From a virus, in IMG/VR virus record IMGVR_UViG_3300047409_000194, positions 1-38,443 of that record: a stretch of DNA of 38,443 nucleotides, one strand, 5' to 3'. The translations under genes were made by a program, and so were the position numbers. Positions 483-37,345 of this stretch are shown here, one piece after another; positions within the stretch are counted from its first letter, which is position 1, and each line of letters begins with the position of its first letter. The notes beneath the pieces are model-generated. The model did no database searches. It was not told the origin of the DNA and saw only the letters and a list, made by a program, of their open reading frames with translations.

Positions 483-1426
483 CGCTGCTGTCCGACCAGG
501 AGCTCCGCCGGCGCATCGCGCTCGAGCTCGAGAAATTCAACCGCAAAGGAAAAGCCGTGAGTCAGCAACAAGCCGAAGTCGGTAAAGAGGAATACGAAAA
601 GGGCCCGATCGCCAAGGCCGCCAACCAGTTGCCCCCACCGCCCACCGGGCTGGAGCTGCTGCGCACGCCGTTCCCGCCGCACCAGATCTCCAAACTGCCG
701 AAGGGCACCAAGGCCCAGAACGAGTGCGCGTCCAACCTGAAAAAGCGCTGCGACGTTTGCGGCGGGTGGCACCACCCGGACGTGATCCACCTCGACTACG
801 TGGGCCATGCCGCATTGACGGACAGGCTGCTCGAGGCCGACCCGTCCTGGTCCTGGGATCCGCTCGCGCTGGGCGAGGATGGCCTGCCGCAGTTCGATGC
901 CCGCGGCGGTCTCTGGATCAGGCTCACCGTGTGCGGCGTCACCCGGCTGGGTTACGGCAACGCCGAGAACAAAAGCTACATGGACGTCGGCGCCCGGGAA
1001 AAGGAAGCGATCGGCGACGCGCTGAGAAATGCCGGCATGCGTTTCGGTTGCGCGCTCGAGCTCTGGCACAAGGGTCAGCTGCATCCGGATGCCGGCGACG
1101 ATAAGCCTCCGGTAAACGACACCCCGCCGGAGCGCCCCCGCGGCGACAGCGAGCCACCGAAGGGCTCGGCCCGCAACGTCACCGAGGAGGCCTTCAATGC
1201 CCTCGACGCCGGCGCCAAGGAGGTGCTCGAGCGCAAGGCCCAGGACGTCGCCGCGACCAACGCCATGCACGGCATCGTCAAGGCGGTCGACCTGTTCCAG
1301 GAGTTCAACTTCGAGACCGAGGACAAGCTCGCGATCTGGTTCCTGTTCGACAGCGAGCTGCGCAGCTCGATCAAGCGCGAGGAAATTCGCCGGCGCACGC
1401 TGGCCACAGAAAGGGATCCGGTATGA
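479..1426 (+). CDS. Rad52-like single-strand annealing protein
   Basis: This is a probable phage recombinase that anneals complementary single strands with the neighbouring SSB. Residues 145-197 (WIRLTVCGVTRLGYG, then GAREKEAIGDALRNAGMRFG) resemble the Rad52/Rad22 core strand-turn-helix, where a KEA..DALK.A...FG signature is typical. A Cys/His cluster at C91, C94, H98, H104 precedes it. The C-terminal third is charged and flexible. GTG 479 overlaps the previous stop (GTGA). An internal GTG at 557, preceded by AAAGGA with a 6-base gap, would give a 289-aa product and may be the main start. The ORF is followed by SSB with an ATGA-type overlap at 1423. Family assignment is by pattern only. Confidence 0.78.
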   Translation: MTLLSDQELRRRIALELEKFNRKGKAVSQQQAEVGKEEYEKGPIAKAANQLPPPPTGLELLRTPFPPHQISKLPKGTKAQNECASNLKKRCDVCGGWHHPDVIHLDYVGHAALTDRLLEADPSWSWDPLALGEDGLPQFDARGGLWIRLTVCGVTRLGYGNAENKSYMDVGAREKEAIGDALRNAGMRFGCALELWHKGQLHPDAGDDKPPVNDTPPERPRGDSEPPKGSARNVTEEAFNALDAGAKEVLERKAQDVAATNAMHGIVKAVDLFQEFNFETEDKLAIWFLFDSELRSSIKREEIRRRTLATERDPV

Positions 1427-3345: not shown

Positions 3346-5965
3346 CGTACTCGAGCAGCTTCTGCCATCCACCCTGCTGGCCGACGATGTCGCGCAGCTT
3401 CAGTAGATCGTCCGCCGGCTGATACTGCGGGTTCTGCGCCGCGAAGGCGCGATCGGCAGCGTTGGCCGCGGCGATCTCGGCGTTGGTTCCGCCGTGCACG
3501 TCCAGCCGCGACGCCAGGTCCGGGATCGGCAACATCTGCGGGTTCTTCGACTTGCCGGTCAACACCTTGACCATCTCTTTGGTCACCACCCCGGTGCCCT
3601 GGGTGGGGTTGCCGGCCGCGTCCTTGCCCCAGGGCACCCCGACAAAGTCGCTGTTCCATGTTGCTGGGGTGTTGGTCAGCGCCTTGTAGTTGCCGAGCAC
3701 TGAATTGACCTTGTTCTGTACATCCTCGCCGGTCCAGTCCTGGTCGAAGCGGCCGACCGAGAACCGTCCATTGCGATCGTCGACCACATTCAGCCCGGTA
3801 TTGCGCAGCTCGGGGACCACCTTGCGCAACTCCTCAATATGGCCCTCCATCGCCCCCGGCGCGCCCGATACATCTGGAATGTCGAGCAGCGAGCCCTTCT
3901 GGGTTGAGATGTCAGCGCTTTTGGTGGAAGGGACCAGGAAGTGCGTGCCGCCGCCTGACTGCGCGTTCATCGCCGAGCGCAGCCACTCCACTGTGTTCAT
4001 CCCGCGCTGGGTGGTGGGGTTGATCACCCCTCCCGCCTCGATATCGGCCAGCATCCGCGTGATGCCCTGCCAGTTCTCCTGGGTCGGCAGGCCCTGCCCA
4101 GGATCCCACCAACCGCGACTGGTGGCCCTCTCGGTTGGACGCACAAACTGTTGCAGCGACTGGTAGTACGGGTCGCGCACCGCGGTTTGCTCGATCCTAG
4201 CCTTGCTATAAGCGTCGTTGAGCGCCTTGTCCTTCGACAGCCCCATGAAGTGTGGGGTGTTCTCTCCCGGGGTCACTTCCCAGTTGGCAAATGCAGTGTT
4301 GCGCATGATCGCGTCGTCGACGCCGGCGCTGGCGTCGGCCCACATTTCTTCATGGGTCAGCCGCTCCGGCACTACCGGCTTTTTCTTCAGTCCGGTCTTA
4401 TCACCAGCATTCCACCGCTCTAGGTCGGCGGTCTTGTCGGCGATCGCTTTCAGGTTCTTGGCGTTGGCCACGTCATAGGCCTGGGTCGCCCAGATCGCCG
4501 CCTGCGTCCTGGGCACATTCCAGTCCAACCCACCCGGGATGTTCTCGCCGGTTGATGCCCTACCGGCCGGGATCGTCGGTGCGTTCTGCCGCGCGCGGTC
4601 GGAGATCAGCAGGTTCTCGCCATGCAGGAACCCGTGCTCGGCATCAGAAAAGCCACGATCGAAGATGTCCCCGTTGGGCATCCGGTAGCCGTAGGCCCGA
4701 CCGTGCCGGATGTCGTTCGCGGTCTTCCAGTCGAATGGCAGCGTCGGGTCCTTGGCCATCGCATAAGGACCGATCTTCGGCCCCAGTCCGATATTGCCTG
4801 GCGTGATCTCATAGGTGCCATCCGGCAGTCTGGTGTAGGCCGGCGCGACCATGTTCATCTGGAACCCCATCCGCGCCTGGCGGTCCTGGCCGGTGAGCAT
4901 CTTGGCGTTGTGCTGCTTTAGGAATGAGTTGGTCTCGTCGATCGGTGTCGACTTGATCGAATACGGCGCGGCGCCGCGCGCAAACAGCTGCGCCATGGTC
5001 GCTTCCTTGCTGTTCGGGGCCATATTCGGCGAGTAGCCGGTCACGTCCATGATCCCGGACCGGGCGCGGTCGTACCAGTTCGCGTTTTCGAGCCCGCGCG
5101 TGAGCATGTCGTCCATGCCCATCCGCATCGATCCCAACTGCCCAGGCCAACTGACCCAGTCCGGTCCGCCGATGTACTTGCCGGTAGCGTCCTGCTTCAG
5201 GTGCGCCCCGGCGCGGGCCATCGGCATCGCGGTCGCCTCGTTGGGCACAGCGTCCCACATATTGCCGATCGTCTGCTTCGGCGGTGGCGGTGGTTTGGGT
5301 GGTTTGGGTGGTTTGCCGCTCCCGCCACCACCCTTGGCCGCCGCGGCCATCATCGTCACCCAGTCGTTCTGCCGCGGCGCTGGGAACGACGCCGGGCCGC
5401 CGGCCCCAGCCAGCGCCAGGTTATCGGGGAGGGTCATCAGATCCTTGATCCCGGCCGCCGCGCGCCCGCCCATCTGGCGCGCCTGCGGTGCGATCGTCAG
5501 CAAGCCAGCCTTGCCCAGCTGGGCCGCCTTCATGCCGGCCGGCTGCAGCACCAGGTCGGCCACTAACCCGCCGAGCTGCTCGCCGGCGTTGGGGCTGCCG
5601 GTGGCCACCCCCGAGCTGCGGTCCTGCATCCCGTACTGGGCCGGATCGCCTGGAATGGTGCCCTGCTCGACACCGCGTTGGCGTAGGTCAGCCGCGCCGC
5701 CAGGCATGTTCGCCTGCGGCAGGAAGTGCTCGAACCCTGGCGGCAGCGCCCACTTGCCGAGCTGGAACAAGGTGTCCGCCGGCAGCCCTTTACCCTTGAG
5801 CTGGAAGCCACGCTCCCAGTCCGATGGCCGTCCCAGGTCGTACTGGTTCTTGCCAATTTTCAGCATGCCAAATGGCGCGTCCTGGCCCTGCAACAGCGAG
5901 TGGGTCATGCCCTGCTTGCGTTCGGCCTCCAGCAGCCTGCGTTCCTCGTCGGTCAGCCTTGCCAT
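3245..5965 (-). CDS. Large internal virion (ejection-type) protein, 906 aa
   Basis: The largest ORF and the next-to-last late gene. The N-terminus is charged (LTDEERRLLEAERKQG); about residues 160-240 are Ala/Gly-rich with a Lys/Pro linker (KPPKPPKPPPPPK). Residues 285-470 (NWYDRARSGIMDVTGYSP, later TANDIRHGRAYGYRMPNGD and DAEHGFLHGENLL) recall a domain seen in phage polyvalent or internal proteins carried into the host; I give this only low weight. Its place after the structural genes and its size suit a DNA-ejection protein. The start is one base after the previous stop, with GGAG inside the upstream gene. I see no lysozyme motif. Confidence 0.7.
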   Translation of the reverse strand: MARLTDEERRLLEAERKQGMTHSLLQGQDAPFGMLKIGKNQYDLGRPSDWERGFQLKGKGLPADTLFQLGKWALPPGFEHFLPQANMPGGAADLRQRGVEQGTIPGDPAQYGMQDRSSGVATGSPNAGEQLGGLVADLVLQPAGMKAAQLGKAGLLTIAPQARQMGGRAAAGIKDLMTLPDNLALAGAGGPASFPAPRQNDWVTMMAAAAKGGGGSGKPPKPPKPPPPPKQTIGNMWDAVPNEATAMPMARAGAHLKQDATGKYIGGPDWVSWPGQLGSMRMGMDDMLTRGLENANWYDRARSGIMDVTGYSPNMAPNSKEATMAQLFARGAAPYSIKSTPIDETNSFLKQHNAKMLTGQDRQARMGFQMNMVAPAYTRLPDGTYEITPGNIGLGPKIGPYAMAKDPTLPFDWKTANDIRHGRAYGYRMPNGDIFDRGFSDAEHGFLHGENLLISDRARQNAPTIPAGRASTGENIPGGLDWNVPRTQAAIWATQAYDVANAKNLKAIADKTADLERWNAGDKTGLKKKPVVPERLTHEEMWADASAGVDDAIMRNTAFANWEVTPGENTPHFMGLSKDKALNDAYSKARIEQTAVRDPYYQSLQQFVRPTERATSRGWWDPGQGLPTQENWQGITRMLADIEAGGVINPTTQRGMNTVEWLRSAMNAQSGGGTHFLVPSTKSADISTQKGSLLDIPDVSGAPGAMEGHIEELRKVVPELRNTGLNVVDDRNGRFSVGRFDQDWTGEDVQNKVNSVLGNYKALTNTPATWNSDFVGVPWGKDAAGNPTQGTGVVTKEMVKVLTGKSKNPQMLPIPDLASRLDVHGGTNAEIAAANAADRAFAAQNPQYQPADDLLKLRDIVGQQGGWQKLLEYVKKNGYQGLPAVFGPSLLDTSGLWQQQQEDRGW

Positions 5966-5966
5966 G

Positions 5967-6218
5967 TCATCTCCTCGGTGCGAGCTGCTTCAGGGTCTTG
6001 CTCTGCTCTTCGATCGCCTGCTCGATACGCTCGATACGCTGGTCGCGTTGCCGCGCATCCCGACTCTGCGCGTCGCGGTGCCGCTCCTCCTCGAGCACCG
6101 ATACCCGGCTCTCGAGCTTGAAGGCGAACCAGACCACCCCGACCAGGATCACCGCCACCGCGGCGAGCGCCTCGATCATCAGCAGGTAGTTGAAGCCCGT
6201 TTTGGGCGTCTGGTCCAT
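5967..6218 (-). CDS. Small membrane protein with C-terminal coiled coil (spanin- or holin-like)
   Basis: 83 residues with one transmembrane segment at about 11-33 (LLMIEALAAVAVILVGVVWF), followed by a charged helix to residue 78 rich in Glu, Arg and Gln (LESRVSVLEEERHRDA and on). This N-in/periplasmic-coil layout is that of an i-spanin (Rz-like); it could also be a one-span holin or a T7-like membrane protein. There is no embedded or adjacent lipoprotein-box partner that I can see. It lies between two internal virion genes with close spacing. Confidence 0.7.
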   Translation of the reverse strand: MDQTPKTGFNYLLMIEALAAVAVILVGVVWFAFKLESRVSVLEEERHRDAQSRDARQRDQRIERIEQAIEEQSKTLKQLAPRR

Positions 6219-6221
6219 GCT

Positions 6222-8462
6222 TCATTGTGGCCTGATCTGTTCCACCAGGTCTTGCATCGCCTTGCGCACTTCGGGGTCCTTCTCGGTGGTTGAGGTCACC
6301 GCCAGCCGCGCCAGATGTTGTTGGATGCGCGAGTCGGGGATGGTGGTCGACTGCGCCGCCCAATTGACGAACTTCGGGTTGGTCATCAACCTGGATCCCA
6401 TGTTGGAAGCCAACACTGGCGCGACCAGCACGCTGGCGAGCGTCTTCAGCGAACCACTGAGGATCGCCCGGCCGGCGCCGGCACCCATCGCCAGCTGCGC
6501 CGCGGCACCGGAAGTCCCCGACGGGTTGGCGAACACCCCGCCCTTTTCCTTGATCATCTCCGCCGCCGCGGCGATATTGTCCAACCCCTTGCGCACCGTC
6601 TGCGCGTTGGGGTAGGCCGAGAACAGCGCGTCTTTCGCCTCCGGCTGGAGCTTGTTCCAGTTAGTCAGGAAGGTCTGCGACGAAAACTTGTCCCCCGCAG
6701 CGTTCTGGTTGCCCGGGGTGGCGCGCGACATCTCGTCGATCACCGTCGCCGCTACCTTGGCCCGTACATCCTTGGGCAACGAGGCCATGGTCTGCCGGGT
6801 GACCGAGCCGGCCTGCCTGGCGGTGCCGGCGATCTGGCCGTAGGCGGCCTCGCCCGAGCTTTGCTTGTAGATCGGGTCGAGCACGTCCTCGATGATGCGC
6901 TGGGTCTCCTTGTAGAACTTGTCCGCGCGCGCCATGCGCGGCTCGGCAAACGGTGGCGTGGTCTGCCCCAGAGACATCCGCAACAGCGCGTCGTTGTCGC
7001 GCGCGGCTTGCATCAGGTCCTGCTTGGAGCCGCCCAGGACCGCCTTCGCCGCGCCGGTGCTCTGGTCGATCAAGAGCTCGTTAGCGGCCGGATAGGCCAC
7101 CCCGCCTAGCCGCGACTTGAACGCGCGCAGCGCCGCGAACGGCACCCCGCCGGGTTGGCTGGGAGTGCCTGGGGTGCCCGGGATGGTGATCATGATCGGG
7201 TTACCCCTGGCGTCGAGAATGCCCGAGGGTACCTGCCGGGTCGGGGTGGCCGGCGTGCCCGGGATCGGCGCCGCGTCGGTCAGGTGCTGTTGGAAAACGG
7301 TGTTCAGCCGGCCGTACTCGGCATTGCGCCCTGCGGTCGACGTCGGTGCGCCAGGGATCGCCCCGGTTACTGTGTTGTACGCGCCAGTCTGGTTGGTGAT
7401 CGGGAAGCGCGAGCCGGGAATGATCGCCTGCTCGGCACGGTTGAGCATGTTTTCTTCGATGTCCTGCTGCCGTTGGCGGTAGTCTTTGATCGCCGTCTGC
7501 GCCGCCCGACCGGCGATGTCCGGCCCGCGATCGATCGCCGACAGGTCGCCGAGCAGCCCCGCCCGTTCGCCCATCGCCGCCTGGGTCTTCACCGCGTTGT
7601 CGGTCATGATCCCGGCTGAACCTGGAGTACGCGAGAACATCGACTCCAGCGCCTGCGGGAAGCGCTGACCCGAGGCCAGCCCGAGCGAAGGGTTGGTGAT
7701 CCCGGCGCCGAGCAGGGTCTGCATCCGCTCGTTCATGGTCAGCCGGCCTTCCTCGCCGCCGCGCGCCGCACCGCGGATCGACGCCGGCACCGCCCAGCCT
7801 ACGGTCTGCGGCGCAAACCCGGCCGCGACCGCCATCGCCGGGTTATCCGGGAAGCGCTCGGCGGCGTACTGTGAAGCGACACCAGAGGTGCCGGCCATGC
7901 CGACATCGCGCGCGGCGCCGAGCGCCAGGTTGGGTGCTGGCGGCGGCGTCGGTGGCACCGGCTTGTACGGCGCCTGGCCGAGCTCCGCCGCGTAGCGCCA
8001 GAGCGGGTTCCAGACCTGGCTACCGATGGTGCCTCCAGGGGTGCGGAAGCCGCCCACCGCCGAGCCGACCGCGGCGCCGGCGGCGTGTAGGTAGCGCGAG
8101 GCGGGGTCATCTGGGCGGGCGACGTCGATCGCCCCGCCCCCGCCAGCCTTACGGACCAGGTCGGCGATCCACGCGCTCGAGCCGGGGATCTGCTCGCGCG
8201 GGGTGAGCTCGGGCAGGTCGGTCCCGCCCAGCGCGCCTTTGGCCGCGCCGTAGGCGGCCTTGCCGAGGTCGATGACGTTGGCCGCGGTGTCTACCGGCAG
8301 TCCCACCAGGCCAAGCACGTTCTGGTTGACCCCCTGGAACGGCGCCAGCACGCGGTCCATCACCGTCGGCGGTGCCGGCGGCGCGACCTCCTTCTTGAGC
8401 CGCGCATAGAGGTTCATCAGCTCTTCGTTGGACAGCGCGGCAGGATCGATCTCGTCAGCCAT
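6222..8462 (-). CDS. Internal virion / DNA-ejection-type protein, 746 aa
   Basis: A long Ala/Gly-rich protein with an acidic helical start (MADEIDPAALSNEELMNLYA), a Pro-rich segment at about 165-180 (PVPPTPPPAPN), a helical middle (residues 330-400 and 470-620), and a hydrophobic stretch near 660-700 (LASVLVAPVLASNM) that could insert in a membrane. No enzyme motif is visible. Gene order and composition resemble the ejection-protein cluster of P22- and T7-like phages. The stop of the upstream gene lies 1 base before this start. Confidence 0.72.
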   Translation of the reverse strand: MADEIDPAALSNEELMNLYARLKKEVAPPAPPTVMDRVLAPFQGVNQNVLGLVGLPVDTAANVIDLGKAAYGAAKGALGGTDLPELTPREQIPGSSAWIADLVRKAGGGGAIDVARPDDPASRYLHAAGAAVGSAVGGFRTPGGTIGSQVWNPLWRYAAELGQAPYKPVPPTPPPAPNLALGAARDVGMAGTSGVASQYAAERFPDNPAMAVAAGFAPQTVGWAVPASIRGAARGGEEGRLTMNERMQTLLGAGITNPSLGLASGQRFPQALESMFSRTPGSAGIMTDNAVKTQAAMGERAGLLGDLSAIDRGPDIAGRAAQTAIKDYRQRQQDIEENMLNRAEQAIIPGSRFPITNQTGAYNTVTGAIPGAPTSTAGRNAEYGRLNTVFQQHLTDAAPIPGTPATPTRQVPSGILDARGNPIMITIPGTPGTPSQPGGVPFAALRAFKSRLGGVAYPAANELLIDQSTGAAKAVLGGSKQDLMQAARDNDALLRMSLGQTTPPFAEPRMARADKFYKETQRIIEDVLDPIYKQSSGEAAYGQIAGTARQAGSVTRQTMASLPKDVRAKVAATVIDEMSRATPGNQNAAGDKFSSQTFLTNWNKLQPEAKDALFSAYPNAQTVRKGLDNIAAAAEMIKEKGGVFANPSGTSGAAAQLAMGAGAGRAILSGSLKTLASVLVAPVLASNMGSRLMTNPKFVNWAAQSTTIPDSRIQQHLARLAVTSTTEKDPEVRKAMQDLVEQIRPQ

Positions 8463-23425: not shown

Positions 23426-25915
23426 TCACTGCACGGTCGGCGCCAGGGGCGCGGCCTGCATGCGCTGCACCTCGTGCGCCGACTTCATCATCTCCACGCC
23501 CTGTTTCTGCTGCTCGCCCTGCACTTTCAAGACCTGCAGCTCCATCGCCATGCGGTGCTCTTCCGCCTTCCACTGCGCCTGCTGCTGGGCCATCTGCAGG
23601 TCCATTTTCTTCAGCTCGAGCTCCATCTGCTTCATCTGCGCCGCGGTCTGCTGCGCCGCCTGCTCGGCTTGTAGCTCGAGCTGCTTCAATTGGATGTCGG
23701 CCTGCGCGCGCACCTCTGCGGTATGGGCCTTGGCCCCCTCGGCCTGGGCCACCGCCTGCGCCATCTGCACCTGCGGGTCGCCCTGCTGCGACTTGGCCTG
23801 CTTGGCCGCGGCAATTTGCTTCTTCCAGCTCTCCGCCAGCCCGGCCGGCAACGGCGCATAGTCGAGCGCCTCCTCGGGCACCGGACCGCCTGCTTGCATC
23901 ACCATCGGCGCGATCTTCATCAGCGCCAGGAAGGTCTTTTCCTTCATATCGCGCGCGGTCGGGGCGACGTCGACCACCACGTCGTACTCGAGCACCCCGC
24001 GCTGGAGCAGCAACGGCTCGTAGCGCTCACCGAGTGGACCGGCCACCCGCACCAGCCGCCCGTCGGCCATGTACTCGATCAGGAAATGCGCCAACAGCCG
24101 GCCCTGGGCCTTGCGGTAGTGCCTGAGCGCGTCGAACAGCGTCGCCACGTTGCCCATGCCGGCATTGGTGCGCGCCTCTTCGACTATGCCGGGCTGCATT
24201 TTATCGGCCAGCCCGACCATCTCCAGCGGCACCCCGCTGGCATCGCGAATGGAGCTCACCGAGAACGTCAGCAGCTCGTCGATCGACTTCGGGTACTGCG
24301 GGATGGGCTTGGGCTGGATCTTGGCGCCCGACAAGGCGCCGGCATTGACCAGCGTAACGCCGTCGGTTTTGGCCCAGTCCTGCTCCAGCTTGCGGATGTC
24401 GTTAACCGCGCCCTCTTCGATCAATATCCCGCCCTTGGCGTTGGTATTGATCATGTGCAGGAGCTGGCTGAGCATCTTGTTCGCATACCGCTGGGGGTCC
24501 TCCATCACCGCTACGGCGCCGTAGAAGGTGCCTTTCAGGTGATCGCGGTAGCCGGTGATCGCCTGGTAGATGAATTCGTACTGGCAGGGCGCGTCGGATA
24601 CCTCGAGCAGCTGTTTGCCGAGCAAAAAGGCCTGCTTGTACACCGCTTTCGTGCGCCGGCGGCCCTTCAGCGGCGGCAAGCCCATTTGCAGCGTGCGCTC
24701 CTGCGCCAGCTGGTAGTCCTCTTCGCTCATCTCCAGGTCGGGCGGCTTTTTCGGCCGCGGCGGGGGCGGCGGGGGCATCCCCATCGGGGGCGGGCCCATT
24801 CCCGGCGGTCCGCCGGCCGCATTCGGCGGCATTGCGGGACCCGCGCCTGGTGGCGGCATTGCGGGAGCTCCGGGAGGCATTCCAGGCGGTCCTTGTGGGT
24901 GCATCGGGGGCTGACCCATCGGCGGTGGGCGCATTCCAGGCACCGACGGTGGCATCCCTGGCGGTGGGCCCATGCCTGGTGGCGGCCCTCCCATCGGCGG
25001 GGGTGGCGGGCCCGCCGGCATGCCACCGGCTACACCCGGAGGCATAGGCGGTCTCGGCATCCCAGGCGGCCCATTCGGTGGCCCCATCCCCGGCGGCGGT
25101 CCCATCGGCGGCGGCATGCCTCCCCCAAGTTGGGGGACAGGGGGAGCCATCGGGGGAGGAGGCTGCTTCACCATCCACACCGTCACCTTCTCGCGCCAAC
25201 AATGGTGGATCACGCACCGGGTCCCGTCCGGGGCGTCGTCAGTGGCGGTCTTTTCGTACCACGGCGCGCGGCTAGCGTCGTGCGGGGTCGTGTCCGGCAG
25301 CCGCTCCTGGCCGCCAACCAGCTCCGCGTCCGGCCAGCGCCCGAGAATGGCCTCGTCGTCGAGCCAGTCGTCGCACTGCACCCATTGCATGTCACTCAAG
25401 TTGCGCTTAACCGCGGCCGGATCGTAATGGAACGCGAACGGGTCGCGCCGCGGCACTTCAACCATCCCCTCCGAGTTGGTCTCGAAGTCCATTTTGGTTT
25501 CGGTCCAGCCGTAACCACAGATCACGGTGTCCCTGAACGCGTCGCTTTCCTCGTCTTCGGCGTCGCATTGGTCCCTGGCCCATTTGGCGCCCTCGGTCAG
25601 CAGGTCGTTGACGCCCGAGTCGTCGATCGTCCTCGGCCTATACTGCACTTCCTGGCGGTTGTTGCTCTCGGATCCGCAGATGGCGTTGACCATGACCGCA
25701 ATTCTGTTGAAGCTCACGCACGGCTTGCGCATGTCCTTGTGGGCCGCCTCGTCCTCGGCCGTCCACTGCTTGCCGGCCACCATGTCGTACCAGATCTCAG
25801 CCTTCTTGCGCCACTCCGCAAGGTGCGTCTCCGAGCGCTTACGCTTCTCGAGGATGTCCTCGACCAGCTCTTCATCGCTCTTGTCGACCGGCTCAGTGGG
25901 CTGCTCTGAATACAT
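23426..25915 (-). CDS. Portal protein (P22-like) with Pro/Gly/Met-rich insertion, 829 aa
   Basis: Dodecameric portal for DNA packaging. Residues 1-250 (DILEKRKRSETHLAEWRKKA, then KPCVSFNRIAVMVNAICGSE and QYRPRTID) and 415-700 (KAVYKQAFLLGKQLLE, MEDPQRYANKMLSQLLHMIN, ALSGAKIQPKP, SSIRDASGVPLEMVGLADK) match the P22-type portal core. Residues about 690-815 form a Gln/Glu/Lys-rich coiled coil, like the P22 barrel. Between these halves, residues 252-391 are nearly all Pro, Gly, Met and Ala in PPGMGPP-like units, an unusual insertion where ordinary portals have a short loop. Confidence 0.9.
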   Translation of the reverse strand: MYSEQPTEPVDKSDEELVEDILEKRKRSETHLAEWRKKAEIWYDMVAGKQWTAEDEAAHKDMRKPCVSFNRIAVMVNAICGSESNNRQEVQYRPRTIDDSGVNDLLTEGAKWARDQCDAEDEESDAFRDTVICGYGWTETKMDFETNSEGMVEVPRRDPFAFHYDPAAVKRNLSDMQWVQCDDWLDDEAILGRWPDAELVGGQERLPDTTPHDASRAPWYEKTATDDAPDGTRCVIHHCWREKVTVWMVKQPPPPMAPPVPQLGGGMPPPMGPPPGMGPPNGPPGMPRPPMPPGVAGGMPAGPPPPPMGGPPPGMGPPPGMPPSVPGMRPPPMGQPPMHPQGPPGMPPGAPAMPPPGAGPAMPPNAAGGPPGMGPPPMGMPPPPPPRPKKPPDLEMSEEDYQLAQERTLQMGLPPLKGRRRTKAVYKQAFLLGKQLLEVSDAPCQYEFIYQAITGYRDHLKGTFYGAVAVMEDPQRYANKMLSQLLHMINTNAKGGILIEEGAVNDIRKLEQDWAKTDGVTLVNAGALSGAKIQPKPIPQYPKSIDELLTFSVSSIRDASGVPLEMVGLADKMQPGIVEEARTNAGMGNVATLFDALRHYRKAQGRLLAHFLIEYMADGRLVRVAGPLGERYEPLLLQRGVLEYDVVVDVAPTARDMKEKTFLALMKIAPMVMQAGGPVPEEALDYAPLPAGLAESWKKQIAAAKQAKSQQGDPQVQMAQAVAQAEGAKAHTAEVRAQADIQLKQLELQAEQAAQQTAAQMKQMELELKKMDLQMAQQQAQWKAEEHRMAMELQVLKVQGEQQKQGVEMMKSAHEVQRMQAAPLAPTVQ
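24742..25162 (-). repeat. Pro/Gly/Met-rich repeat insertion in the portal gene
   Basis: About 140 codons of degenerate PPGM/GPPP repeats, starting right after VTVWMVKQ and ending before PPDLEMSEEDY. The DNA is repetitive and G/C-rich, so copy number could vary and assembly could misplace units. Confidence 0.8.
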
Positions 25916-27061: not shown

Positions 27062-27246
27062 TTCTTTCCCACCTCTGCCGCGAAGGCATCGAACCGCTGC
27101 CGCAGCGCGTCCAAGTCGTGCCAGATCCGCGATAGCCGCGAGTCCTGCTCGATCTGCACCGACTTCATCACCACCATCTGCTGCTCCAACTCGCGCAGCC
27201 CCGGCCCCGCCGGCTGCTCTTCCACCTCTGTCCGCTTCGCTGTCAT
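27058..27246 (-). CDS. Small coiled-coil protein, 62 aa
   Basis: ATGA overlaps on both sides. A charged N-terminus (TAKRTEVEEQPAG), then a continuous helix (LRELEQQMVVMKSVQIEQDS, IWHDLDALRQRFDAFAAEVG). No recognised family; see the possible tandem duplication with the next gene. Confidence 0.62.
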   Translation of the reverse strand: MTAKRTEVEEQPAGPGLRELEQQMVVMKSVQIEQDSRLSRIWHDLDALRQRFDAFAAEVGKK

Positions 27247-27401
27247 GCCTTCTCCATCTTCCGCAACGTCTGCGCACTACGCACCCGCGCCTTGATCTCC
27301 GCCGGCTTGCCCTTCGCCATCACTACCTGCTTCTGCGCCCAGCGGTGCGGCTGATAGCCCCAATGCTCGACGTGGCAGAGCTTGCAGACCGGGGCCTTCA
27401 T
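27243..27401 (-). CDS. 52-aa basic protein with CX2CX3HX5H motif
   Basis: Fills the gap between two ATGA overlaps exactly (start 27401, stop 27243). It begins MKAPVCKLCHVEHWGYQPH, with C6, C9, H13 and H19 placed as a small zinc site, followed by a basic helix (KQVVMAKGKPAEIKARVRSA). The same Cys/His spacing occurs in the adjacent alpha-CTD-like protein, so they may share a partner or be related by duplication of the motif. Confidence 0.7.
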   Translation of the reverse strand: MKAPVCKLCHVEHWGYQPHRWAQKQVVMAKGKPAEIKARVRSAQTLRKMEKA

Positions 27402-27997
27402 ACCATCCCCACCGTCGCCACGGCCATCTGCTGCACCCGCTTCTCCAGTTCGATCACCCGCGCCAGCAACTCGGCCACCATCCCCGGATCAGTCGCCAGC
27501 ATCGTCAGCCGGCGCGACTCCTCGTCGGTATAGCGGTGCCCTGCCCCCGGCCAGTGCCGCATCCGGCACACCTCGCATAGCGGCGGCTGCTCGACCTTCG
27601 GCTCCTTCGCCAGCACCAGGCCCTCGGCCTGCAGCGCGTCTTTGATCTCGTTCAGCGCCTTGCGCCCCAGGTTGGGGGTCAGCAGCAACTTGGTCTCAGT
27701 CCATGTCACCAGGGCGGCAACCGTCGTGATCCCCTCGGACAGCAGGCAGTTCACCGTGCGCGTCTGCAAGCCAAGCTCGCGCACCGAGTCAAGCTCACCC
27801 AGCCCCGTGCGGTGCGCCATCTCAAAGCGCACCCCGTTGCTGGCCTCGAAAAACTCAGGGCTGCTATGGCCCAGCTTCCCGGCCTTGAGCGCCGCCTCAT
27901 ACTCCGCCAAGGCAGGCAGGTAGGCGGTATTGAACAGCACGCCCTCCCCGACGTCCTGGCGGACCACAATGGTCAGCGTGCGGCGCGCCCGGCTCAT
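27398..27997 (-). CDS. RNA polymerase alpha-CTD-like protein with Cys/His motif, 199 aa
   Basis: ATG 27997 forms ATGA with the terminase stop; a GTG 9 bases upstream is the alternative. Residues ~70-130 (LGLQTRTVNCLLSEGITTV, then LLLTPNLGRKALNEIKDAL) align by eye with the bacterial RNAP alpha C-terminal domain, including the equivalents of E. coli R265, N268, C269, G296, K298 and E302; S299 is Ala. These contact UP-element DNA. A CX2CX3HX5H motif follows (C141, C144, H148, H154), then a C-terminal helix (VAELLARVIELEKRV). The N-terminal 65 residues are of unknown fold. It could modulate host transcription at AT-rich promoters; that role is inferred. Confidence 0.85.
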   Translation of the reverse strand: MSRARRTLTIVVRQDVGEGVLFNTAYLPALAEYEAALKAGKLGHSSPEFFEASNGVRFEMAHRTGLGELDSVRELGLQTRTVNCLLSEGITTVAALVTWTETKLLLTPNLGRKALNEIKDALQAEGLVLAKEPKVEQPPLCEVCRMRHWPGAGHRYTDEESRRLTMLATDPGMVAELLARVIELEKRVQQMAVATVGMV

Positions 27998-29508
27998 GCC
28001 GCCCACGCACTGGTTTCGACTTCGCGCTTGTAGCGGTCCTTCACCGTCGGGCTCGAGTCCCGCGGCCAGATCAGCTCGAGCTCGGGCTCGGCGATGCGCG
28101 CCAGCGCGTCCATCATGTCATCGTGCAGGCCGACAGGAAAGCTGACGTACTCCTGCTCGATGAAGTCCTGCACCAGGTCGCGTACGACGTGCTCGTAGTC
28201 GCCATAGTTGTGCGTGATCGGCAGGTAGAAGCGGCCCTGCTCGAACAGCGGCAGCAGCCGGCGCACGCGATCGTTCTTCGGCGCCCGGCCGGCCACCGGG
28301 GTGATATCGAACCGGTAATTCTCCGCCTCCTGGCAGGCCTTGATATGGGCGATGTCGGCCATCAGCCCGTACGACTCGTAGCGGACTTCCATTGGGCGCC
28401 ACTTGCGGTGCAGGCGCATGATCGCCGCGGCGCGCTCGGTCAGGTTCAGCCGGTCTCTGATGATGTCCAGCGCGTAGTAGTTGCGATCGGCGGCCAGCCC
28501 GATGACCCAGATGCTGGTGTAGTCAGAGCTCCGGCGCTTGCTGTTCGCCGCGTCGCAGAGTAGGTACTTGTTCATCCCCTCGCCGCTGCGGTTCTCGAAG
28601 TGCTTGAGCCACTCGCGGCGGAAGGACTGGGTGGCGTCGTGGAGCGGGTCCTGCATGATCTGGCACGCGAACGTGTACGGGCCCAGGTCTTTGCGCTTCT
28701 CCTTGAGCTGCTCCACGGTCCAGATCGCCGGCACGCCGTCCAGGGTGCCGTCGTCGGTGGCCAGCCGCACGCGCTGGGTGGCGGTGCCGCGCTGCAGGAT
28801 GGTCTGGTAACTGTCCGCGGCGTGGTACCTGGTACCCACGAACCGCCGGCGGCCGTGCTCGGTGCCCAGGTTGTACGACAGCTCGAGCATCTCGGTCGTC
28901 TTCTGCATCATCTCCGGCGAGGTGACCGAGCTCTGGGTCACGACGTCGTCGTAGACCATGATCGAGTAGTGCTTGCCGGTCGGCTGCCCATCGACCAGGC
29001 CGTGCGCCTCGAGCGTGCTCTCCTTCGGGTTGCCGCGGCGCCTGAGCACCAGCCCATCGTCCTCGCTCCACTTCGGCGCCTGGCGCGCGGGGTCGTGCCA
29101 GATGATGTCCGGGAACAGACCGCGCAGGCAGGCGTTGGTCTCCAGCTCGCGCTTGAGTTGGCGTAAGAAACCCTTGGCGATCGGCCGGGTATGAGAGAAC
29201 AGCCCGACGGTGACCTCAGGATCGTTCAGGATGTCCTGCAGCGTCAGCGCCAGGGTGATGATCGAGCTCTTGTAGTGGCCTCTGCTCCAGAGGTCCAGGC
29301 GATCGTTCGGATCCGCCTGCACTTCCCGACACCGATCCAGGATCCACTGGTGCTCCGCATCCGGTCGGTTCAGTGCGTACCGTAGCAGGTAGTACAGATC
29401 GTTCAGACACAGGTATCTGATGGCCTGGGCCTGCTCTACCGAGGATAGCGCCAGCAAGGAACGCTGCAGCGTCGAATACTGCTCCAGGGTGGTTGGTAGT
29501 GGGCTCAA
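27994..29508 (-). CDS. Terminase large subunit (TerL)
   Basis: ATP-driven packaging motor and nuclease. Walker A-like SRGHYKSS at 75-82, Walker B IMVYDD at 183-188, and the RNase H-like nuclease acids D319 (LLCDAANS), E378 (RYESYG) and D463/D467 (HDDMMDA). The length of 504 aa is normal. The start is probably TTG 29508 with AAGGG about 10 bases upstream: an in-frame stop lies only 21 bases further up, and the DRCREVQADPN and NDLYYLLRYAL segments upstream of Walker A must belong to the protein. It overlaps the TerS ORF by 293 bases in another frame. Confidence 0.93.
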   Translation of the reverse strand: MSPLPTTLEQYSTLQRSLLALSSVEQAQAIRYLCLNDLYYLLRYALNRPDAEHQWILDRCREVQADPNDRLDLWSRGHYKSSIITLALTLQDILNDPEVTVGLFSHTRPIAKGFLRQLKRELETNACLRGLFPDIIWHDPARQAPKWSEDDGLVLRRRGNPKESTLEAHGLVDGQPTGKHYSIMVYDDVVTQSSVTSPEMMQKTTEMLELSYNLGTEHGRRRFVGTRYHAADSYQTILQRGTATQRVRLATDDGTLDGVPAIWTVEQLKEKRKDLGPYTFACQIMQDPLHDATQSFRREWLKHFENRSGEGMNKYLLCDAANSKRRSSDYTSIWVIGLAADRNYYALDIIRDRLNLTERAAAIMRLHRKWRPMEVRYESYGLMADIAHIKACQEAENYRFDITPVAGRAPKNDRVRRLLPLFEQGRFYLPITHNYGDYEHVVRDLVQDFIEQEYVSFPVGLHDDMMDALARIAEPELELIWPRDSSPTVKDRYKREVETSAWAA

Positions 29509-32827: not shown

Positions 32828-32963
32828 CCGGCGGGCGCAGCAGCGCCGCGAGTTGTCGCTGCTGCGTCTCGTAGGCATGGACCTGCTCGAGCATCACGCC
32901 GATCGCGGCGTGCACCCGGTCGATACCGAGGTGCCACTGGCCGCAGAGGGGACAGAGGACCAC
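32754..32963 (-). CDS. Small zinc-motif protein, 69 aa
   Basis: GTG 32963 lies one base after the stop of the collagen-like gene (TGACGTG), a coupling arrangement. It begins V-V-L-CPLCGQWHLGIDRVH, with C4, C7, H11, H18 close to the Cys/His spacing found elsewhere in the genome. The C-terminal half is Arg/Pro-rich (SAPGPGSDTDRSPAEQARRR) and antisense to the RHH gene, so the end of this gene is less certain. Confidence 0.5.
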   Translation of the reverse strand: MVLCPLCGQWHLGIDRVHAAIGVMLEQVHAYETQQRQLAALLRPPVSAPGPGSDTDRSPAEQARRRLTR

Positions 32964-32964
32964 G

Positions 32965-33711
32965 TCAATACCTGTCCGGGGTCATCACGTCAATGCGGAT
33001 GTTGGTCGGCGCACCGCCCAGCGGCCGGTCGCCATTGGTGACGATGATGTCAAGTGTGTCGTCATAGGTCATCATCACCTGCGATGGGGATCCCGGCGTA
33101 GGGGCATTGGACAGCCCGCATGACGGTGCGTTTTCAGATGCCGTAAAGCGCTGGATGCCGTTGTTGTTCAGGGTCAGGGTGCGGGTGAAGACCGCGCTGC
33201 CAGGCTCTTCAATGACGTTGATCCGCCCGAATTTGGTAGGGTCCATCGCCGACTTCCAGACCAACCGGAAACAGCAGGTCTGGAGCGGCGCCAGCTGCAC
33301 GTTCTTCAACGTCACTTGACCGCTTTCCGGCCACGGCACGATCACCGGCGGCACCGGGGTCGGATAGTCCTGCCCCTGCGGGGGCGGGGGACCGCCGTCA
33401 GTGCCGCCATCGCCACCATCGGTACCACCATCGCCCCCATCGCCACCACCTGCGGGGCCTTGTGGCCCCGGCGGTCCCTGGGGGCCTGCTGGCCCCGGCA
33501 CGCCCTGGGCACCGGCCGGCCCCGGGATCCCCTGCGGCCCTGCTGGGCCAGTAGCGCCCTGCGGCCCGGGTGGCCCTGCGGGACCGGGCGGCCCCATGAT
33601 GCCGCTCGGAGGCGGCGCATCGTCACCCCCATCGCGCACATAGAATTGACTGCACTCGATCACCTGCACCGTGTCCGACGCCGACCCGGCTGGAAAGACA
33701 TAGAGCTTCAT
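32965..33711 (-). CDS. Second collagen-like protein, 248 aa
   Basis: ATGA overlap at the start. Residues 1-37 are a short beta-rich head ([20 protein letters not shown]), 38-90 are Gly-Pro-Pro-type triplets ([14 protein letters not shown] and on), 90-110 Gly/Asp-rich, then a C-terminal beta domain ([56 protein letters not shown]). Unlike the fibre, it sits in the immunity-linked leftward island, so it could be an accessory virion fibre or a lysogenic-state surface factor; neither is shown. Confidence 0.75.
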
Positions 33712-35872: not shown

Positions 35873-35901
35873 TTGACACATACCTACGCTACTCCGATAA
35901 T
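35873..35901 (+). promoter_or_regulatory. Early promoter P2
   Basis: TTGACA (35873-35878), 17 bases, GATAAT (35896-35901), with AT-rich DNA before it (35850-35872, GATAAAATTAGTAAGAAAAC), an UP-element-like stretch. It shares CTATTGACAC, CTACGCT and GATAATTC with P3. Confidence 0.92.
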
Positions 35902-37316: not shown

Positions 37317-37345
37317 TTGACACTTTTCTACGCTGCGCTGATAAT
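37317..37345 (+). promoter_or_regulatory. Early promoter P3
   Basis: TTGACA (37317-37322), 17 bases, GATAAT (37340-37345); AT-rich run upstream (37295-37316, CAATAATTATTATTAGAAAA), UP-element-like. The closest relative of P2 in the -35 half and of P1 in the downstream half. Confidence 0.93.

Follow-up and report, generated by a model that had tools for sequence, protein, structure and literature searches.

A phage-encoded RNA polymerase alpha-CTD without an alpha-NTD in a terminase-portal operon

The alpha-CTD gene and its operon

The window, that is, the whole stretch of DNA analyzed in this study, was IMG/VR record IMGVR_UViG_3300047409_000194 (38,443 nt), a virus of bacteria with a G+C content of 65%. 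A gene on its minus strand (27398..27997, stop codon counted in) encodes a protein of 199 aa; the ATG lies at 27997, and an alternative GTG start is located at 28006. The large terminase gene (27994..29508, minus strand; phrog_38, 7.6e-58; PF17289, 9.8e-8) is situated directly upstream, and an ORF of 52 aa (27243..27401, minus strand) carrying CX2CX3HW-x4-HR directly downstream. The terminase stop codon and the ATG of the 199-aa gene share the bases ATGA, and the TGA of this gene overlaps the following ATG in the same manner. Beyond it, the operon continues on the same strand throughout with six small ORFs and then the portal gene (23426..25915, minus strand; phrog_156, 5.4e-83), which ends the terminase-portal interval. 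The original prediction had placed the gene directly after terminase and overlapping its stop, as found here in the packaging operon. The dN/dS values of the protein against its relatives were 0.31-0.34 and those of terminase 0.05-0.12, indicating that the 199-aa gene is real and under moderate purifying selection.

Two further features of the structural genes were recorded. The portal protein has a long Pro/Gly/Met-rich low-complexity insert (approximately 24.7-25.1 kb), by which its alignment with relatives is split in two. A tail-fibre/collagen-like ORF is present at 32965-33711 (minus strand), on the early side of the window and remote from the other structural genes.

Domain architecture and contact surfaces

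Residues 70-132 (27602..27790, minus strand) are almost certainly a true alpha-CTD of RNA polymerase. Pfam RNA_pol_A_CTD (PF03118) matched residues 71-123 (27629-27787) with an E-value of 6.9e-16 and a score of 58.2 bits (cut-off, 23.8), and a phmmer search of the PDB returned RNA polymerase alpha chains exclusively (best 3.7e-11). With three near-identical sequences as input, AlphaFold gave a mean pLDDT of 39; with a 34-row alignment, in which every row was translated from this or other viral loci, block means for residues 71-130 were 85-93. When the latter model was compared with the PDB using Foldseek, all 49 matches at E-values up to 1e-3 were RNA polymerase alpha or its complexes, and the E. 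coli alpha-CTD bound to CAP and DNA (1lb2_E; 50% identity) superposed on the model with a deviation of 0.8 A across 60 residues. The runner-up Pfam families were weak (PF14520 HHH_5, 1.1e-3; RAD51D_N, 0.043), so that RNA_pol_A_CTD led by 12 orders of magnitude. Together with the Foldseek result, these scores ruled out a chance resemblance from another helix-hairpin-helix family of the RuvA, RecR, or RAD51D type, to which we assign next to no probability. Neither alpha-NTD nor Sigma70_r4 was matched by Pfam in the 199-aa protein, and of the NCBIfam rpoA models only the C-terminal ends matched it, far under the cut-off. The reading of this protein as an alpha-CTD without an alpha-NTD, proposed originally from the sequence by eye, was thus upheld, and the competing family that might have overturned it did not appear.

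Alignment with the E. coli alpha-CTD gave the equivalences R80=R265, N83=N268, C84=C269, G111=G296, K113=K298, A114=S299, and E117=E302, all of them as first proposed, including the replacement of S299 by Ala. The DNA-contacting 265 determinant is therefore intact in the window protein except for S299A. Changes were found on the sigma- and CRP-facing sides (D258R, E261G, E288K, and R317E). The 261 determinant, which contacts sigma region 4 through D259 and E261, reads G at 261, R at 258, and E at 259; the net charge at these three positions amounts to 0 in the window protein, compared with -3 in 17 of the 19 bacterial alpha-CTDs. On the 287 surface, T285 and E286 are retained, and the substitutions to K at 288 and E at 317 lie on its CRP-facing side. 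The domain has thus kept its DNA-binding face and altered the faces that are useful to the polymerase, and it may bind UP-element DNA.

We also determined how general this pattern is among the alpha-CTDs of other phages described below. These loci were found by search patterns containing either R265/N268/C269 or N294/G296/K298, by which raw conservation is biased; residues were therefore scored over 27 dereplicated groups, and only where the pattern did not require them. In these unbiased counts, R265 was conserved in 14/14, G296 in 12/12, K298 in 9/12, and N294 in 11/12, and E302, which is absent from both patterns, was present in all 27 groups. The mean charge at positions 258, 259, and 261 was -1.8 in the phage groups (n=27) versus -2.8 in bacteria. 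The case for a loss of the sigma determinant across the whole class was weakened by this analysis, since the effect was partial after dereplication into 27 groups and clear in the window protein.

The remaining parts of the protein fit the original description of an unassigned N-terminus and a CX2CX3HX5H motif. The N-terminal region (residues 1-68; 27794..27997, minus strand) matched no family, and AlphaFold confidence there was mostly low. The motif (C141-x2-C144-x3-H148-x5-H154; 27536..27577, minus strand) is a sequence pattern with no Pfam match and is invariant in the three relatives. It is repeated in the next ORF (CKLCHVEHWGYQPH), which is conserved in L002, L004, L005, and L008; a local alignment of the C-terminal regions of the two proteins scored 64, a value reached by 0 of 5000 shuffles. 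Four C-x2-C-x3-H-x4..6-H motifs occur in the phage, at 749-790 (plus strand) and at 32910-32954, 27345-27386, and 27536-27577 (minus strand), and the protein with the first of these resembles a phage recombination (Sak-type) protein. The motif probably forms a small zinc site that this phage has reused. The C-terminal helix (residues 171-197; 27407..27487, minus strand) was modeled by AlphaFold with a pLDDT of ~73-88. Three heptads could be read from its sequence, with V174, V181, and V188 at position a and L177, L184, and M191 at position d, and a coiled coil is possible.

Relatives of the gene and of the domain

The whole protein was encoded on three viral contigs at 89-96% identity. When the N-terminal part or the C-terminal part alone was used as the query of the viral scan, the same three loci and no others were recovered. 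No relatives of the whole protein were found in a genome scan of 84,980 bacterial and archaeal species, and hence neither a prophage copy nor a host assignment could be obtained; terminase relatives in bacterial genomes came from mixed hosts and MAGs.

The sibling phage G001 (38.9 kb) encodes a terminase protein that is 100% identical in the best segment, and an unrelated gene occupies the exact slot of the alpha-CTD gene. The DNA common to the two phages is 98% identical until nine bases inside the gene and starts anew 18 bases ahead of its stop. The substitute is an 86-aa ORF (L005:3227-3484) that begins with MNRRGFLG; G004 carries a relative of it at the corresponding position. PF03118 had no match anywhere in G001. 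These results indicate that the alpha-CTD gene is a swappable accessory cassette of the terminase-portal operon. The MNRRGFLG start resembles a twin-arginine (Tat) export signal, which would be odd in a phage packaging operon. A small ORF with the same start was also observed in the alpha-CTD slot at L008:2163-2474.

Scanning viral sequences with the alpha-CTD alignment yielded 53 loci, 50 of which lay outside this clade, with products ranging from 77 to 529 aa (contig ends truncate a few). Pfam recognized the alpha-CTD in 31/31 members scanned and Sigma70 region 4 in at most 8, and alpha-NTD was absent from the families matched by several members. The phage alpha-CTDs without an alpha-NTD outside this clade form at least 27 distinct sequence groups. 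Frequent fusion partners of such domains were sigma70 region 4 and HTH domains; sigma70 region 4 and the alpha-CTD were carried in one short chain at L048, L053, L060, L063, L064, and L066, and also at L062. Within RNA polymerase, these two domains are in mutual contact. The genes neighboring the other alpha-CTD loci included RecT, Erf, exonuclease, DNA polymerase, helicase, and integrase genes, indicating that the contigs are phages or prophages. Two unusual arrangements were noted, namely adjacent genes that each encode an alpha-CTD with unlike N-termini (L034:5224-5679 and 5716-6243) and a 529-aa phage protein with the alpha-CTD in mid-chain (L065:5524-7113).

A search in structure space brought up viral proteins already named "RNA polymerase, alpha subunit, C-terminal" from uncultured Caudovirales phages, Rhodococcus phage Finch, and Mycobacterium phage Mithril. 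A further protein, "RNA polymerase subunit alpha" of Bacillus phage Goe8 (QDP42789), has 210 aa; its gene lies close to the end of the genome, and the record contains it twice. Three records filed as "Bacteriophage sp." (MT835508, MT836419, and MT839982; L013-L015) proved to be bacterial ribosomal-protein/rpoA operons and were dropped as evidence, and the named Salmonella and Acinetobacter records among the database matches were annotated as rpoA. Of 369 genomes from a single bacterial class (G027-G394), roughly two dozen contained two or three PF03118 matches; orphan alpha-CTDs in prophages may account for some of the second copies and second rpoA genes for others.

In a tree built on domains of about 60 residues, the phage domains fell beside Firmicute-type, alphaproteobacterial, and beta/gammaproteobacterial rpoA, and the alphaproteobacterial capture was starred for its support (98/86). 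The window domain formed a long branch, weakly placed, among beta/gammaproteobacterial rpoA. The tree suggests several separate captures from host rpoA.

Both the domain itself and alpha-CTDs without an alpha-NTD, named in some phage records, are already known, and no studies of phage-encoded alpha-CTDs were found in the searchable literature, in which few subscription papers were covered. The window protein shares the fold and the 265 determinant with bacterial RpoA (PF03118). Unlike RpoA, it has no alpha-NTD with which to enter the core, its 261 and 287 determinants are changed, and a foreign N-terminus, a Cys/His motif, and a helix have been added. The proteins of Finch, Mithril, the uncultured Caudovirales, and Goe8 are likewise short and contain an alpha-CTD and no alpha-NTD; however, their N-termini differ from that of the window protein, and the Goe8 protein lacks CX2CX3HX5H. 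The sigma70 region 4 fusions have the alpha-CTD module and the DNA determinant in common with the window protein, whereas sigma region 4 is theirs alone. The IMG/VR phage alpha-CTD genes whose neighbors were checked lie beside replication genes and outside the terminase-portal interval. Among the sequences examined, the combination of this N-terminus, an alpha-CTD, CX2CX3HX5H, and a coiled-coil-like helix, as well as the location in the terminase-portal slot, occurred only in this clade.

Possible functions of the alpha-CTD protein

We propose that the protein functions by DNA-binding interference with host RNA polymerase, a reading to which we give somewhat less than an even chance. According to this proposal, a phage protein without an alpha-NTD would have acquired its alpha-CTD from bacterial rpoA, and the captured domain would bind the minor groove of AT-rich, UP-element-like DNA. 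The protein would be produced late, together with terminase. The C-terminal helix may dimerize the protein and so provide two tethered alpha-CTDs, as in RNA polymerase. By binding AT-rich upstream DNA, such a dimer would compete at UP-dependent promoters with the alpha-CTDs of the host enzyme, and host transcription, perhaps together with early phage transcription, would be damped late in infection. Because the protein has no alpha-NTD and its sigma (261) and CRP (287) surfaces are changed, it should be unable to help the polymerase, and the fusions to sigma region 4 or HTH domains in its phage relatives imply that the domain is used in transcription. T4 Alt and ModA ADP-ribosylate R265 of host alpha (PMC2988021), and Rac of LUZ19 leads to cleavage at the alpha linker, which removes the alpha-CTD (PMC7552054), indicating that the alpha-CTD/UP axis is already an established phage target. 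The window protein would hit the same step, by functional analogy and not by homology; whereas the T4 and LUZ19 proteins alter or cut the host subunit, the window phage brings its own copy of the domain.

The original prediction had further suggested that the protein occupies AT-rich DNA at the early promoters P2 and P3 and thereby turns off early transcription. We take these to be the two strong early-type promoters on the plus strand at 35873..35901 and 37317..37345, both reading TTGACA-17-GATAAT. The DNA upstream of each is rich in AT, and the two 40-base stretches with the highest AT content in the window (0.75 AT) fall on these promoters, which were thereby confirmed. A purpose of the protein in occupying this DNA was not supported. 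Both promoters and their AT-rich upstream DNA are present in G001 and G003, and also in G002, where one has a single mismatch. Since G001 keeps them without an alpha-CTD gene, the promoters are independent of the gene, and the alpha-CTD of the host itself suffices to account for their UP-like DNA. Nothing specific points to repression of the two promoters by the alpha-CTD protein, which may nevertheless occur; the protein may likewise compete with the host at rRNA promoters, as was also proposed originally. Three points speak against interference in general: the putative early promoters are retained where the gene is missing, a close sibling manages without the gene, and isolated alpha-CTDs bind DNA weakly.

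A packaging-linked DNA-binding role, in which the alpha-CTD fold would serve as a generic helix-hairpin-helix DNA binder that aids terminase or portal and has no part in transcription, fits the operon setting just as well. Translational coupling to the large terminase, the location between terminase and portal, and the adjoining small ORF with the same Cys/His motif would all be accounted for in this way. However, G001 packages its DNA with a near-identical terminase and without an alpha-CTD, its slot being held by an unrelated gene; no alpha-CTD was found beside terminase in 23 terminase relatives from bacterial genomes or in L008-L012; and the alpha-CTD genes of other phages adjoin replication and recombination genes. 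We therefore regard a packaging accessory as unlikely. The exchange of the gene for an unrelated one with a Tat-like signal suggests a variable host-interaction slot, and the retention of T285 and E286 on the 287 surface would also suit a decoy that captures, in place of DNA, a protein interacting with the host alpha-CTD, for example an activator, NusA, or a defence protein by which the alpha-CTD is sensed. A decoy predicts the opposite of the observed pattern, in which the sigma (D258R, E261G) and CRP (E288K, R317E) contacts are changed but the DNA contacts are not, and we consider it quite improbable. The position of the gene in a head/packaging operon could finally reflect a regulator that is packaged in the virion or made late and acts when the next infection begins, for which T4 Alt, a head protein injected along with the DNA, provides a precedent (PMC2988021); the chance that this applies here appears slim.

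Returning to interference with host RNA polymerase, a broader proposal can be formulated, which we offer as speculative and doubtful. Multiple captures of rpoA may have given rise to a class of regulators by which the recognition of UP elements is uncoupled from the polymerase. The window protein would then be a bivalent, non-productive UP competitor, representing a route beside the ADP-ribosylation of R265 in T4 and the cleavage caused by Rac. The case is computational, and the surprise is limited by the names already present in some phage records. If UP elements are indeed bound, the phage would disarm or redirect the strongest host promoters with a spare reader of upstream DNA, while the host's own remains unmodified. 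If this is true, the 27 domain groups outside the clade would also constitute a natural set of RNA polymerase-free alpha-CTDs, which would be useful for separating the DNA-, sigma-, and activator-contact functions of the domain.
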